Below, piece after piece: positions 1-14,923 of a stretch of 14,987 nt of DNA. The notes below the pieces were generated by a model, which was not told the DNA's origin, ran no database searches, and was given only the letters and a program-made list of their open reading frames with translations. Both the position numbers and the translations under genes were made by a program. Position 1 is the first letter of the stretch. Each line of letters opens with the position of its first letter. Source of the stretch: Candidatus Altarchaeum sp. (GTDB lineage Archaea; Altiarchaeota; Altiarchaeia; Altiarchaeales; Altiarchaeaceae); NCBI GenBank assembly GCA_018260755.1, contig JAGTWP010000035.1, positions 1-14,987 of the forward strand. The letters run 5' to 3'.

Positions 1-300
1 TAAGGCATCCTGATGATATTTAAGTGCATTATCCAAATCCCCTTTATACGAATAGATAAGCCCGATATTTCCCAATTGGTTTGCTTCACCTTGTTTATGA
101 CCAATTTCCCTGTCAATTTTTAAGGCATCCTGATGATATTTAAGTGCATTATCCAAATCCCCTTTATACGAATAGATAAGCCCGATATTTCCCAAATCCG
201 ATGCTTCACCTTGTTTATGACCAATTTCCCTGTCAATTTTTAAGGCATCCTGAAGATGTTTAAGTGCATTATCCAAATCCCCTTTATACAAATAGATAAC
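1..300 (-). repeat. Near-identical 120-bp tandem repeats encoding TPR units
   Basis: Bases 1-120 and 121-240 differ at only five positions, all clustered near 77-82/197-202. Bases 241-300 match the first half of the unit with four changes. Each unit encodes one 40-residue TPR. Such DNA-level identity points to recent duplication or gene conversion. The array continues off the left edge, so the copy number is unknown. Confidence 0.9.
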
Positions 301-1104
301 CCCGATATTTCCCAAAGCCAATGCTTTTCCTTTTAATGCATCTTTTTTGTCGACTTTTTCAGTTATATTGAGACCTGCATTGTAATTTTCAAGTGCTTTG
401 TTATTTTGGCTTAATGAATAATATGCATTACCTAAATTCAAAAGAATTGACATTTTTTCTGTCGGGGAAATTATACATGTCCGCAAAATATTTTCAAATT
501 CTTTTATCGCATCTTCGTATTTCTCATTTCTACATAACAAAAGTGCTTTGAGATAATGCTCTTTTAATTCCTTATCATCTGATTTTGGAATACCATCAAC
601 CCAAAATCTTACTTTTTTAATGCTTAACTCTTCTTCAGAAAGATAAATACCGGGTGAAGAATTTTTGGAAAAATACTCTTTCTTCAGAATTCTTTTCATT
701 ACATCATCGACAAGTTCAGATTTATCTTCAAATTTAAAGTATTGTTTTTTTCCTAACCATGTATTTTTAAAGAAATTTTTCGCATAATCTGAATTAACAT
801 CAATATCGCTTTTTAAATATATTCTTATATTCTCTATTTTTTTCTCATTTATAGCATATTGTATCTCTTCTTCAATTGCTCCTTCGGAGTAAAATGTTCC
901 GTAAGTAATTATTAAGAAAATTTCTTCTGAATTCTTAAGTGCAGAATATCTTACTTCTTTTTCATCTTCTCCAGGTGTAATGTCTTCTGGAGCCACAAAA
1001 CAATTTATCTTACATTTGCCCTCAAGAGCATTTTTAAGATGTAGAGCAATGTCGTGTCCCGTAGAGGTTTCGTAGATAATAAATGCTTCAAATTTTTTAC
1101 CCAT
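1..1104 (-). CDS. TIR-domain/TPR-repeat protein, 3' end outside window
   Basis: The frame is open from the ATG at 1104-1102 to the window edge (368 codons, no stop), so the C-terminus is missing. Residues 1 to about 138 look like a TIR domain: an opening strand FEAFIIYE, the motif FVAPEDITPGED typical of the TIR BB-loop region, then FLIIT and SEGAIEEEI. Family TIR NADases carry a catalytic Glu six residues after a Ser in this last motif. Here Ser73 and Glu79 fit, but the usual Trp between them is Gly-Ala. Residues about 165-230 form degenerate TPR-like helices. From about 233 on, 40-residue repeats follow with the core LGNIGLIY, YKGDLDNALKY and KIDREIGHKQGEA, as in kinesin-light-chain/nephrocystin-type TPRs. 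The TIR part may hydrolyse NAD or signal, and the TPR part may sense a partner; both are inferences. It lies 43 bp after the MOSC gene on the same strand. Confidence 0.82.
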   Translation of the reverse strand, partial: MGKKFEAFIIYETSTGHDIALHLKNALEGKCKINCFVAPEDITPGEDEKEVRYSALKNSEEIFLIITYGTFYSEGAIEEEIQYAINEKKIENIRIYLKSDIDVNSDYAKNFFKNTWLGKKQYFKFEDKSELVDDVMKRILKKEYFSKNSSPGIYLSEEELSIKKVRFWVDGIPKSDDKELKEHYLKALLLCRNEKYEDAIKEFENILRTCIISPTEKMSILLNLGNAYYSLSQNNKALENYNAGLNITEKVDKKDALKGKALALGNIGVIYLYKGDLDNALKHLQDALKIDREIGHKQGEASDLGNIGLIYSYKGDLDNALKYHQDALKIDREIGHKQGEANQLGNIGLIYSYKGDLDNALKYHQDAL

Positions 1105-1147: not shown

Positions 1148-1585
1148 TTAAAAATTTTGTTTTTCTATTAAAATTTTATCATCTTTTTTAATAATTCCTC
1201 CTTTTAAGACCTTTGTAAATATTCCGTCTGTCGGCATTATACATTTTCCAACCTTTTTGAAAATTTCGCATTTGTCATGGCATGTCTTTCCTATTTGTGT
1301 AACTTCAAGAATAACATCATTTATTTTTATCTTTGTTCCTATGGGCAATGCAGGTAAATTTATTCCTTCTGTTGTGATGTTCTCTGCAAAGTCCCCTGCA
1401 CCTACTTTTAACCCCCATTTTCTTGCCTTTTCAATGCTTTCAATTGCGAGCAAACTTACCTGTCTGTGCCAGTTTCCAGCGTGAGAGTCACCGTTGATTC
1501 CAAAATTTTCAATAACTTCTGCAAATTCAGTCGGCTCTTTTTTTGTTCCTTTTACTTTGCTTATGTTTACTGAAATGACATTCAT
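1148..1585 (-). CDS. Small MOSC-domain protein
   Basis: This 145-residue protein is a stand-alone MOSC domain, the fold shared with the C-terminus of molybdenum-cofactor sulfurase and YiiM-type proteins. Visible hallmarks are GINGDSHAG near residue 30, HRQVSLLA, a central GDFAENI, and the segment GKTCHDKCEIFKKVGKC, whose conserved Cys is thought to carry sulfur in the family. The length is normal for a single-domain member. The physiological sulfur acceptor cannot be told from sequence, and no molybdopterin gene is nearby. It begins 25 bp after the arsenite exporter gene and is followed after 43 bp by the TIR-TPR gene, all on the minus strand, so co-transcription is possible. No Shine-Dalgarno sequence is seen. 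Confidence 0.85.
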   Translation of the reverse strand: MNVISVNISKVKGTKKEPTEFAEVIENFGINGDSHAGNWHRQVSLLAIESIEKARKWGLKVGAGDFAENITTEGINLPALPIGTKIKINDVILEVTQIGKTCHDKCEIFKKVGKCIMPTDGIFTKVLKGGIIKKDDKILIEKQNF

Positions 1586-3064: not shown

Positions 3065-3982
3065 TTAAACTATTGCAATCATTCTTTCAATGCTCTTCCT
3101 CGCTTTGTCCATAATTTCTTTATCTAAATTTATTTCATATTTTTCAAATTTTAACGCATTATAAACGCTTTCCAGTGTGGTCATCTTCATATTCGGACAT
3201 ATAGCAGTATTTGAAGCAGGATAAAATTTCTTGTTCGGATTTTCCTTTCGCAAACGATAAATTATTCCAATTTCAGTTCCGACTATAAATTCGCCGTTGT
3301 CTGAACTTTTCACAAATTTGAGCATCTGTTCTGTTGAGCCAACAAAATTAGCAATTTCCAGAACTTCTCTTGTGCATTCCGGGTGTGCAATAAATTTTGC
3401 ATTCGGATGCTGTGTTTTTGCCTCTTTTATATCATTAACCGATATCTGATGATGTGTCGGGCAATTTCCAAATTCGGGAATCGTAATTATATTTTTATTT
3501 GTGTGTTTTTTTGCATAATCGGCTAAATTTGCATCAGGTCCGAAAATTATTGTGTCGTTTGTTATGGAATTTAAAATTCGGACAGCATTTGCCGATGTGC
3601 ACGCATAGTCAGATAATGCTTTGCAGGATGCATGGGTATTCACATAAAGCACAACTGCTGGATTTTGCGACTTAAATTTTTTCTTTGCAGTTAAAATTTC
3701 TTCTGGGGAAAGCATCATCGCCATCGGGCACATTGCTTTTTCAGGAATCAGAACTTTCTTATCTGGATTTAAAATTTTTGCCGTTTCCGCCATAAAATCA
3801 ACACCGCAGAAAATTATAATGTCTGCCTTTGTTTTACCTGCCTCTATTGAAAGTCCAAGCGAATCACCTACAAAGTCGGCAATATCTTGAATTTCCGGAC
3901 GCTGATAATTGTGTGCAAGTATTACTGCATTCTTTTCCTTTTTTAACCTTAAAATTTCCCTAATGTATTCGCTGTTTTCCAT
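3065..3982 (-). CDS. nadA: Quinolinate synthase
   Basis: NadA condenses iminoaspartate with dihydroxyacetone phosphate to quinolinate in de novo NAD synthesis, using a [4Fe-4S] cluster. Signatures are ILAHNYQRPEIQDIADFVGDS, FCGVDFMAETAKIL, GPDANLA, HPECTREV and GTEIGIIYRL. Three Cys (85, 174 and 262 from the chosen start, in EKAMCPM, GNCPTHH and ICPNMKM) have the spacing of the cluster ligands in known NadA. I chose the ATG at 3982 (305 residues, the usual size). An upstream in-frame ATG at 4030 would add 16 Tyr/Ser/Thr-rich residues encoded by a short direct repeat and unlike the family. nadB and nadC are not in the window. The yhcG remnant follows after 13 bp. Confidence 0.95.
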   Translation of the reverse strand: MENSEYIREILRLKKEKNAVILAHNYQRPEIQDIADFVGDSLGLSIEAGKTKADIIIFCGVDFMAETAKILNPDKKVLIPEKAMCPMAMMLSPEEILTAKKKFKSQNPAVVLYVNTHASCKALSDYACTSANAVRILNSITNDTIIFGPDANLADYAKKHTNKNIITIPEFGNCPTHHQISVNDIKEAKTQHPNAKFIAHPECTREVLEIANFVGSTEQMLKFVKSSDNGEFIVGTEIGIIYRLRKENPNKKFYPASNTAICPNMKMTTLESVYNALKFEKYEINLDKEIMDKARKSIERMIAIV

Positions 3983-3988
3983 TTTGTA

Positions 3989-4026
3989 ATATGTTGATAT
4001 ATTATTATATTGATATGTTGATATAT
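3989..4026. repeat. 14-bp direct repeat just upstream of nadA
   Basis: The sequence atatgttgatatat occurs at 3989-4002 and again at 4013-4026, an offset of 24 bp, with a related tattgatat between. The first copy begins 7 bp before the chosen nadA start. It could be a paired operator or promoter element for nadA, or simply an AT-rich repeat. No regulator is recognised. Confidence 0.55.
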
Positions 4027-4093
4027 ACAAAAATTGATAGGATATAATTACATTTCAATAAATTTATTTTTTAATAAAATTTATTTTGTTTAA

Positions 4094-4293
4094 TATTACA
4101 TGACTATCGGCAAAATTAAATTTTGACCAAATTAAATGATTTAAACTAATTGAAACTTGAGTGTAAAACATATATAGATTTTACAATTGTTTTTGTAAGT
4201 AATTTAAGAGTGTTATCTATATTTGGCGGATGCCTCCATAAATAAATTATTTATTTTAACCATATTTTGAAAAAAGCCGATAGTCATGTATTA
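4094..4293. mobile_element. MITE-like 190-bp element with TIRs and TATTA duplication
   Basis: A perfect 13-bp inverted repeat, catgactatcggc (4099-4111) and gccgatagtcatg (4276-4288), bounds a 190-bp non-coding core. Both ends are flanked directly by TATTA (4094-4098 and 4289-4293), as expected of a target-site duplication. No transposase fits inside. A short G+C-richer patch (ggcggatgcctcc, near 4225-4237) stands out in the otherwise AT-rich core. The element sits between the divergent nadA and nikM genes and may influence either promoter. The parent transposon family is not recognised. Alternatively, the arms are two operator sites, one facing each gene. Confidence 0.55.
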
Positions 4294-4393
4294 CCAAAAT
4301 CAAATTAATAATAATATTACCAAAATCAAATTAATAATAATATTACCAAAATCAAATTAATAATAATATTACCAAAATCAAATTAATAATAAA
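4289..4393. repeat. Four tandem copies of a 26-bp repeat
   Basis: The unit attaccaaaatcaaattaat plus aataat starts at 4290, 4316, 4342 and 4368. The copies are essentially identical; the last one ends in aaa instead of aat. The array begins inside the right target duplication of the MITE-like element and ends about 58 bp before nikM. There are no spacers, so it is a minisatellite rather than a CRISPR. Its position in the nikM upstream region could affect expression. Confidence 0.9.
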
Positions 4394-12772: not shown

Positions 12773-14923
12773 TTATCCGATTTCACTTCCTTCCTTTGCC
12801 TTTTTATCTGGAATGAGCAGTTTTATTCCTTCGTCATCCTCTGCAGCCAGAATCATTCCCTGCGATTCAATATTGAGCATCTTTCTCGGCTTTAAATTTG
12901 TAAGCACAATCACCTGCTTATTTATCAAATCAATTGGTTTATAAAATTTCTTTATTCCCGCAAGGATAGTTCGTTTTTCCCGTCCCAAATTTACCGTAAG
13001 TTTTATCAGTCGCTCCGACTTTGGAATTTCTTCTGCATGTTCAATTGTTCCGACCTTTAAATTTAGCTTTTTAAATTCCTCATAAGTTATAATTTCTTTA
13101 TTTTCTTCTTCATTTTTCGTCTTTATTTCTTTCTTTTCTTCTTCATTTTTCGTCTTTATTTCTTTCTTTTCTTCTTCATTTTTCGTCTTTATTTCTTTAT
13201 TTTCTTCTGCCTTTTTTCCTTCCTTTGTCTCAACTCCGATTTTTGTAACCTTTTCTTTTATTTCCTCAATAATTTTTTCATCCATTTTCTTAAATAAAGG
13301 CGAAATATCCTTAATTTGAAACTCAATATTGTCTTTATAAATATTTTCAAATTTTGCACATTCTTTTATGTTCAGCATTTCAAAAATTTTTTTAGACGAA
13401 TTCGGCAAAAACGGATGGGAAATATTTGCCAGCTCATAACATATTAATGCACAGCAATACATTGTTTTTTTGCAATCGTCAACATCTTTGCTTAAATTTT
13501 TCCACGGCGCCTTTTTCTGCATATACTCATTGCCGATATCGCTGATTTCCAGAATTTTCCTTAACCCGTCCCGAAGATGCATGTTCAGCATAATGTCTTT
13601 ATACTCCTCTGCCTTTTCTCTAACCTCATTCAGTGCATCTTTTTCATCATCGCCAAAATTTATATCCTTAAAATTTATCTTTCCGTTAAAATTTTTATCA
13701 ATGAATGATAGAGTTCTATTTACAAAATTTCCAAAATTTCCGATTAATTCGGTGTTCGTTTTATTCAGAAATTCATCCCATTTCCATTCAGCATCGCTGT
13801 TTTCAGGGATTAAAAATGTAAGATAAAACCGCCACACATCGCTATCAATTCCGCTGTCAGACAAATTTTCACAGAATATCCCTCTGTTCTGCGACTTTGA
13901 AATTTTGCCGCCTTCATAATTCAGATACTGCAATCCGACGACATTGTAAGGCAGATTAAATTTATTGTTCGCAAGCAGCATTGCAGGCCAGAAAATCGTA
14001 TGAAATATTATGTTGTCCTTTCCGATGAAATGATAAATTCGGACATTGTCTGCCTTGCTATCTTTTTCCCATAAATTTTTTCCTAATTCTTTGGTAAAAG
14101 AGATATATCCAATCGGAGCATCGAACCACACATAAAAAACATTGTCTTTAAAATTTTCAAGCGGAACCTTAATTCCCCATTTTATATCTCTTGTTATGCA
14201 CCTTTCTTTTAGTCCTTCTTTAATCCAGCCGAGCGATTCTGCAATTACATTATCCTTCCAGATTCCTTTTTTGCTTTTAATCCACTCATCCAGTTGAGTG
14301 CTTAACTTATTTAATTCAAAAAACAAATGTGTTCTTTCAACAATTTCCGGCTTAGAACCACAAATTGCACATTTCGGATTTTTCAGTTCCGTAGGATTCA
14401 GCATATTTCCGCACATCTCGCACTGGTCGCCTCTTGCCTTTTCATATCCGCAATTTGGGCAGGTTCCCTCAACATATCTGTCCGGCAATACCCGGTTGCA
14501 TTTTTCACAGTACGGAAGTGAAATTTTTCCTTCTTTAATGTATCCATTTTTGTAAATTTGTGTAAAAAATTCCTGCGTTGTAGAATGGTGAATTTCGTTT
14601 GATGTTCTTGAAAATATATCGTAACTTATATTCAGCCATTCATAAATTTTTTTGTGAATATTGTAGTAATAATCGCATAATTCCTTTGGATTTAAATTTT
14701 TCTTTTGGGCAGCAATTTCAATCGGGGTTCCGTGTTCATCCGCACCCCCCACGAAGGTTACATCATAATTTAGCGTTCTCATAAATCTTGCAAATATATC
14801 TGCTGGAAGATGGCTTCCGACAATGTTTCCTATGTGAGGAATGTTATTTACATACGGAAGGGCAGAGGTTATTAAAATTTTTTCCTTTTCCTTATTTTCC
14901 TGTTCAGGTTGTTTTTCGGCCAT
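12773..14923 (-). CDS. metG: Methionyl-tRNA synthetase with C-terminal tRNA-binding domain
   Basis: MetG charges tRNA-Met. The 716-residue protein has the class I signatures HIGN (residues 30-33, after ITSALPYVNNIP) and KISKS (340-344, a KMSKS variant). Four CxxC pairs (Cys139/142, 155/158, 168/171, 185/188) form the double zinc knuckle seen in archaeal enzymes. FYVWFDAPIGY and YHFIGKDNIIFH belong to the catalytic core, and the anticodon-binding helical domain follows to about 555. A Lys/Glu-rich linker with three 11-residue repeats leads to an EMAP-II/Trbp-like tRNA-binding domain (about 612-716; LKVGTIEHAEEIPKSERL, NLKPRKMLNIESQGMILAA). The ATG at 14923 follows a TATA-like box at 26 bp, and the first 14 residues are a charged extension. 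Confidence 0.97.
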   Translation of the reverse strand: MAEKQPEQENKEKEKILITSALPYVNNIPHIGNIVGSHLPADIFARFMRTLNYDVTFVGGADEHGTPIEIAAQKKNLNPKELCDYYYNIHKKIYEWLNISYDIFSRTSNEIHHSTTQEFFTQIYKNGYIKEGKISLPYCEKCNRVLPDRYVEGTCPNCGYEKARGDQCEMCGNMLNPTELKNPKCAICGSKPEIVERTHLFFELNKLSTQLDEWIKSKKGIWKDNVIAESLGWIKEGLKERCITRDIKWGIKVPLENFKDNVFYVWFDAPIGYISFTKELGKNLWEKDSKADNVRIYHFIGKDNIIFHTIFWPAMLLANNKFNLPYNVVGLQYLNYEGGKISKSQNRGIFCENLSDSGIDSDVWRFYLTFLIPENSDAEWKWDEFLNKTNTELIGNFGNFVNRTLSFIDKNFNGKINFKDINFGDDEKDALNEVREKAEEYKDIMLNMHLRDGLRKILEISDIGNEYMQKKAPWKNLSKDVDDCKKTMYCCALICYELANISHPFLPNSSKKIFEMLNIKECAKFENIYKDNIEFQIKDISPLFKKMDEKIIEEIKEKVTKIGVETKEGKKAEENKEIKTKNEEEKKEIKTKNEEEKKEIKTKNEEENKEIITYEEFKKLNLKVGTIEHAEEIPKSERLIKLTVNLGREKRTILAGIKKFYKPIDLINKQVIVLTNLKPRKMLNIESQGMILAAEDDEGIKLLIPDKKAKEGSEIG
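13101..13199 (-). repeat. 33-bp tandem repeat in the metG linker
   Basis: Three copies of a 33-bp unit encode the 11-residue repeat IKTKNEEEKKE, in frame between the anticodon-binding and tRNA-binding domains. The DNA copies are virtually identical, which suggests recent slippage. Copy number probably varies between strains with little effect on the folded domains. Confidence 0.9.

Follow-up and report, generated by a model that had tools for sequence, protein, structure and literature searches.

A simple candidate immune receptor of an altiarchaeon: a TIR-TPR gene with a homogenised repeat scaffold and retained amino-acid variation

The window, by which we mean the whole 14,987-nucleotide stretch analysed, is the entire contig C68 of a draft Candidatus Altarchaeum genome (G000, 85% complete). 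Its host is an uncultivated deep-groundwater archaeon of the same genus as three genomes used here for comparison, the congeners G001, G002 and G003. At the left end of the window lies a gene for a protein with an N-terminal TIR domain and C-terminal tetratricopeptide repeats (TPRs), the parts of which are as follows:

1–1104, minus strand: TIR-TPR gene, first 368 codons (ORF; truncated by the contig end)
673–1104, minus strand: TIR domain, residues 1–144 (TIR_2 profile, AF2 model, PDB matches)
865–867, minus strand: codon of Glu80, which corresponds to the catalytic Glu of SARM1/tir-1 (invariant; aligns with the Glu of tir-1 VHKELKCA)
580–672, minus strand: linker, residues 145–175 (mostly low-confidence model, pLDDT about 35–60; dN/dS near 1 against G002)
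325–579, minus strand: diverged N-terminal TPRs, residues about 176–260 (TPR fold; between-species amino-acid identity 87–93%, dN 0.04–0.07)
205–324, minus strand: near-identical 40-residue TPR unit 1, ALALGNIGVIYLYKGD... (repeat finding, unit alignment)
85–204, minus strand: near-identical 40-residue TPR unit 2, ASDLGNIGLIYSYKGD... (repeat finding, unit alignment)
1–84, minus strand: near-identical 40-residue TPR unit 3, incomplete at the contig end, ANQLGNIGLIYSYKGD... (unit alignment)
76–81, minus strand: variable dipeptide NQ, TPR positions 2–3 (counterpart SD at 196–201)
1148–1585, minus strand: MOSC-type gene, named by sequence recognition, a conserved neighbour upstream of the TIR-TPR gene (gap 43 bp)

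The original prediction had the gene cut by the edge of the window; it is truncated, but by the end of the contig, which stops within the repeats. Elsewhere in the genome the sole match is at the end of contig C39, where the last 84 codons (the C-terminal 84 residues) lie, followed by fdhD. The ortholog of G002 (contig C190) is uninterrupted: it has 407 codons and is flanked by a MOSC-type gene and fdhD, the three being co-directional. In G003 the break again falls in the repeats, so that the gene occupies the ends of two contigs, and its neighbours are those seen in G000. Because of this synteny we joined C68 and C39 as one gene, the 3' end of which is thus found at the end of C39 and the whole of which is seen in G002. 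As the neighbours agree in all three genomes, this is a single orthologous locus with contig breaks caused by the repeats. The cut units on our two contigs differ at position 24, so that the array holds at least five units, against at least five in G003 and three in G002; these counts are minimum values, as assemblies may collapse repeats. The absence of a STAND NTPase, predicted from the truncated gene, was borne out in the complete 407-residue ortholog of G002, in which no NTPase family was found.

Other repeats were seen in the same genome. A metG-like gene of the window contains 33-bp in-frame repeats (13092–13216), an EIKTKNEEEKK linker that leads from the synthetase body to the C-terminal domain, and a 26-bp AT-rich unit stands in four perfect copies between nadA-like and cbiM-like genes (4289–4392). 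On C39 there is an intergenic AT-rich 21-bp repeat of about eight copies (L003, 3587–3745).

The TIR fold is found in known immune enzymes that destroy NAD. The window protein scored 25.8 bits against the TIR_2 profile, for which the cut-off is 28, and 28.5 bits, just above the cut-off, in the genome search; paralogs in the genus far exceed it, reaching up to 74 bits. Because a fold search with the full-length protein was filled by TPR entries, the TIR was modelled alone, which gave an AF2 model with a pLDDT of 90.4 and a pTM of 0.85. The PDB matches listed by Foldseek for this model are essentially all TIR domains. The best solved matches are SARM1/tir-1, SPARTA and AbTir, and the closest solved relatives are mostly NADases; VIA Z values were 16.0 for SPARTA (over 132 residues) and 15.4 for SARM1, and a profile search gave E values of 1.9e-10 for tir-1 and about 8e-8 for SARM1. 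PDB entries 9m0n and 9umd, labelled 'tetratricopeptide repeat protein', matched the TIR profile weakly at the N-terminus. Structure prediction thus confirms that the N-terminus, originally described as TIR-like, has the TIR flavodoxin-like fold.

A glutamate had been placed at the catalytic position of this domain, and a conserved one does stand there, aligned to the catalytic Glu in helix alpha-C of tir-1/SARM1. It is the invariant Glu80, however, rather than the proposed Glu79, as residue 79 is not conserved. Four residues before it, Ala76 replaces the Trp that contacts NAD in SARM1, and that Trp is present in the paralog L039. With the Glu conserved but the Trp replaced, NADase activity of the window protein is only plausible. 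Between species, dN was 0.22–0.31 for the TIR, 0.04–0.08 for the TPRs and 0.03–0.11 for flanking genes. It is therefore the TIR (dN three to five times that of the TPRs), not the TPR scaffold, that evolves fastest between species, yet it does so under net purifying selection (dN/dS about 0.26–0.38). Public relatives of this TIR outside the genus were two, from Chloroflexi and Bathyarchaeum, and no TPR was seen in their ORFs. Beyond the genus, TIR domains of the A1 type turned up in a single further genome of the phylum, as a weak match, and a scan of IMG/VR found no viral copies of the TIR.

At the other end of the protein, Tandem Repeats Finder reported 2.7 copies of a 120-bp period with 94% matches (1–326). 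The near-identical 120-bp TPR units of the original prediction are accordingly present, but they cover residues 261–368 only, the stretch from about residue 176 to 260 consisting of ordinary diverged TPRs. Residues 176–368 were modelled as a TPR superhelix like that of kinesin light chain or LGN, with 4y6c, which contains near-identical TPR-like repeats of Podospora anserina, among the TPR fold matches. As read from the alignment, adjacent units share 85–93% protein identity over 108 residues, which places the array among repeats of high internal conservation (at least 85% alike across at least 100 residues). The units at 1–120 and 121–240 differ by just five bases, all inside the six-base stretch at 76–81 (AACCAA versus TCGGAT, or NQ versus SD), and none of 200,000 random placements matched the tightness of this cluster. 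The cluster is therefore real, but substitutions are not confined to one short segment as had been proposed, because positions 12–13, 24 and 31–32 also vary. Taken as a whole, the original observation on this gene is confirmed.

We compared the 13 units of the orthologous array from the three species, all in register. Synonymous codon differences amounted to 1.2% within arrays versus 11.4% between species, a within-array value as low as which was obtained in none of 2000 label shuffles, whereas non-synonymous codon differences were 14.4% within arrays versus 15.2% between species (p 0.25). Counted as events, there were 31 non-synonymous and 3 synonymous changes inside arrays, against 0 non-synonymous and 5–6 synonymous fixed differences per pair of species (Fisher p 1e-4 to 3e-4). 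As the units are few and the pairs non-independent, the p-values for these repeats serve as guides. The scaffold of the array is thus homogenised at the DNA level and its amino-acid variants are not, in agreement with the predicted diversification on a fixed scaffold. Columns 2, 3, 9, 12, 13, 24 and 31 each vary in two or more genomes. Seven TPR positions form the ligand groove (2, 5, 9, 12, 13, 33 and 34; PMC1261162), and four of them, 2, 9, 12 and 13 as assigned by motif register, are among the variable columns (p 0.011); columns 3, 24 and 31 lie outside the groove set.

The codons used for Ala, Ser and Leu at position 2 are GCG/TCG/TTG in our genome and GCA/TCA/TTA in G002. Being genome-specific, they make these residues appear to have been remade after homogenisation, and suggest that the position-2 variants arose anew rather than surviving it. 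We did not accept a purely ancestral origin as the sole explanation of the variants that the repeats share, because each genome has its own third codon positions. A diversity-generating retroelement was likewise rejected as the source of variation: no RVT_1 match to a reverse transcriptase was found in the 85%-complete draft of G000, in G002 or in G003, and the NQ/SD difference includes C–G changes and not adenine-only ones. Nor were donor repeats found elsewhere in our own genome, where just the two contig ends match.

Near-identical TPR arrays are present in many genes of the genus, as collected by similarity to the window TPRs. A TIR precedes such arrays in L035, L036 and L039, and in L049 (3656–5182, contig C177 of G002) a near-identical 40-residue array is preceded by a SIR2 domain (SIR2_2 4e-14; PADLOC ThsA 1e-15). 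TIR and SIR2, both fused to TPR arrays, are NAD-consuming effector types. Three further loci, L037 (1–1234), L040 (1–1670) and L046 (3564–4997), carry before their near-identical TPR arrays an N-terminal domain of related appearance that matches no Pfam family and is possibly a degenerate NTPase. In a paralogous TIR-TPR gene of G003 (contig C137) nearly all variation falls at groove positions (p 7.6e-6), and mean entropy was higher at groove positions in each array scored; pN/pS in the other arrays of the genus is mostly below 1. Among the TIR genes of these genomes, the TIR part of the TIR-TPR gene in L036 (about 3314–4217, contig C193 of G002) is disrupted by stop codons or a frameshift. L033 (4075–5556, contig C59 of G000) encodes two tandem TIR domains and a C-terminal domain without a Pfam match (VKNIGEIINKNKRIYFYSPVAP...), and L034 (206–1270, contig C169 of G002) one TIR with the same C-terminal domain.

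The main rival to reading this gene as a receptor is the general fast divergence of repeats in proteins. The product would then be a TPR adaptor of the usual sort that also carries a TIR and has no immune role; tandem duplication would have made the synonymous sites of its young repeats uniform, and their amino-acid differences would stem from the relaxed selection and adaptation of new repeats. Fast divergence of repeat units after duplication is general, indeed universal, inside proteins (PMC5120217), near-identical arrays are widespread in the genus as noted above, and groove positions are the most variable TPR positions generally. However, the differences observed here fall in few columns that are largely the same in three species (seven of ten shared between our genome and G003, p 0.0006), no non-synonymous difference is fixed elsewhere in the unit, and the position-2 codons look like the product of repeated re-creation. 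We therefore regard this explanation as rather unlikely.

The neighbourhood of the gene raises another alternative. Its flanking genes are MOSC, an ACR3-type transporter and fdhD, a conserved housekeeping context in which we found no credible PADLOC match to a defence gene, so that the association with defence genes that had been looked for is not seen at this locus and a defence island is rejected. In G002 the genes MOSC, TIR-TPR and fdhD follow one another in this order, co-oriented and separated by short gaps, and G000 and G003 show these neighbours too. This would suit a signalling or assembly factor for the maturation of the molybdenum cofactor or of formate dehydrogenase, with the TIR as a non-catalytic assembly domain; the substitution of Ala for the NAD-contacting Trp would be in keeping with such a domain. 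Against this, the fdhD genes of G026 and G001 stand without a TIR-TPR gene, the presence of which at the fdhD locus is therefore limited to part of the genus, and a fast TIR and diversified repeats are unexpected for a maturation factor, which makes this role distinctly improbable. At the G001 fdhD locus (L088 2283–3797, contig C184), the position that the TIR-TPR gene has in the other species is occupied by a transposase-like ORF and a stretch of N.

Mis-assembly of metagenomes as the origin of the copies and variants is very improbable, for although the G000 and G003 contigs break inside the array and copy numbers are minimal, the three-unit array of G002 is contiguous, the units of each genome share genome-specific synonymous bases, and the same neighbours recur in three independent assemblies.

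We consider it just probable that the TIR-TPR gene encodes an NTPase-free, two-part intracellular receptor in which a variable groove triggers the TIR. The homogenised 40-residue units would build a TPR superhelix with a binding groove, in which selection would keep the specificity residues variable (unit positions 2, 3, 9, 12, 13 and perhaps 24 and 31), while unequal exchange or gene conversion would keep the scaffold uniform and alter copy number. The groove would bind a ligand, which would most likely be a non-self protein from a virus or another source, and binding would gather the TIR domains; the assembled TIR may then hydrolyse NAD+ or yield an ADP-ribose signal, and the infected cell would be arrested. 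Several lines of evidence point to such a receptor: the closest solved relatives of the TIR are mostly NADases, Glu80 is invariant, the scaffold is homogenised with amino-acid diversity kept, the variable columns overlap the groove positions, TPR arrays are also fused to SIR2, the TPRs of fungal NLRs share the pattern and in part the face, and lytic viruses of altiarchaea exist (PMC8324899). It is weakened in that no defence genes adjoin, the Trp has become Ala76, dN of the TIR exceeds that of the TPRs, pN/pS of other arrays is mostly below 1, young repeats generally diverge fast, and the orthologous array offers just 13 units from three species. A defence role is likely, and the original interpretation as an archaeal TIR-TPR defence receptor is partly supported.

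Fungal NLRs with TPR, WD40 or ANK repeats (Podospora HNWD family, Pa_2_10340) have repeats of high internal conservation, concerted evolution and selected TPR sites on the concave side (PMC4986451). As in these receptors, the repeats of the archaeal gene are alike by about 85% or more, evolve in concert, differ in copy number and follow a domain of toxic type. By motif register its variable residues lie partly at concave positions, with 2, 9, 12 and 13 in the groove and 3, 24 and 31 not. Unlike them, it has no NACHT or NB-ARC NTPase, and a TIR replaces HET or lipase. With the TIR NADases SARM1/tir-1 and SPARTA it shares the fold and the Glu at the catalytic place, but Ala stands where SARM1 has Trp, and its repeat part is TPR instead of ARM/SAM or Ago. 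Thoeris ThsB is a TIR protein too (weak PADLOC match, 6.9e-6), unlike which our protein has a TPR array, and no ThsA-like gene adjoins among the flanking genes examined. TIR-TPR proteins are already known in bacteria: group 6 TIR proteins likewise have an N-terminal TIR followed by TPRs, but are mainly actinobacterial and longer than 700 residues, and the passage of PMC7075850 consulted does not describe their repeats as near-identical. What is new here is the within-array synonymous homogenisation with amino-acid differences retained, a pattern that several genes of the genus show behind a TIR or SIR2 domain.

Apart from CRISPR and restriction, little is known of how archaea defend themselves (PMC12988326). 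Lytic viruses attack altiarchaea, which are abundant primary producers in groundwater (PMC8324899). Tentatively, and with less confidence than for the single gene, altiarchaea may possess a whole set of receptors that lack an NTPase and join near-identical TPR arrays, evolving in concert and with diversified grooves, to interchangeable NAD-consuming effectors (TIR, SIR2), as an independently arisen counterpart of the fungal non-self repertoire. The TIR-TPR gene itself is a good candidate for an immune receptor of simple design. If that is true, the fungal scheme of non-self reception, with a uniform scaffold and a changing groove, would work in archaea too, in a minimal receptor of two domains, and the mutants worth testing could be read directly from the variable residues.
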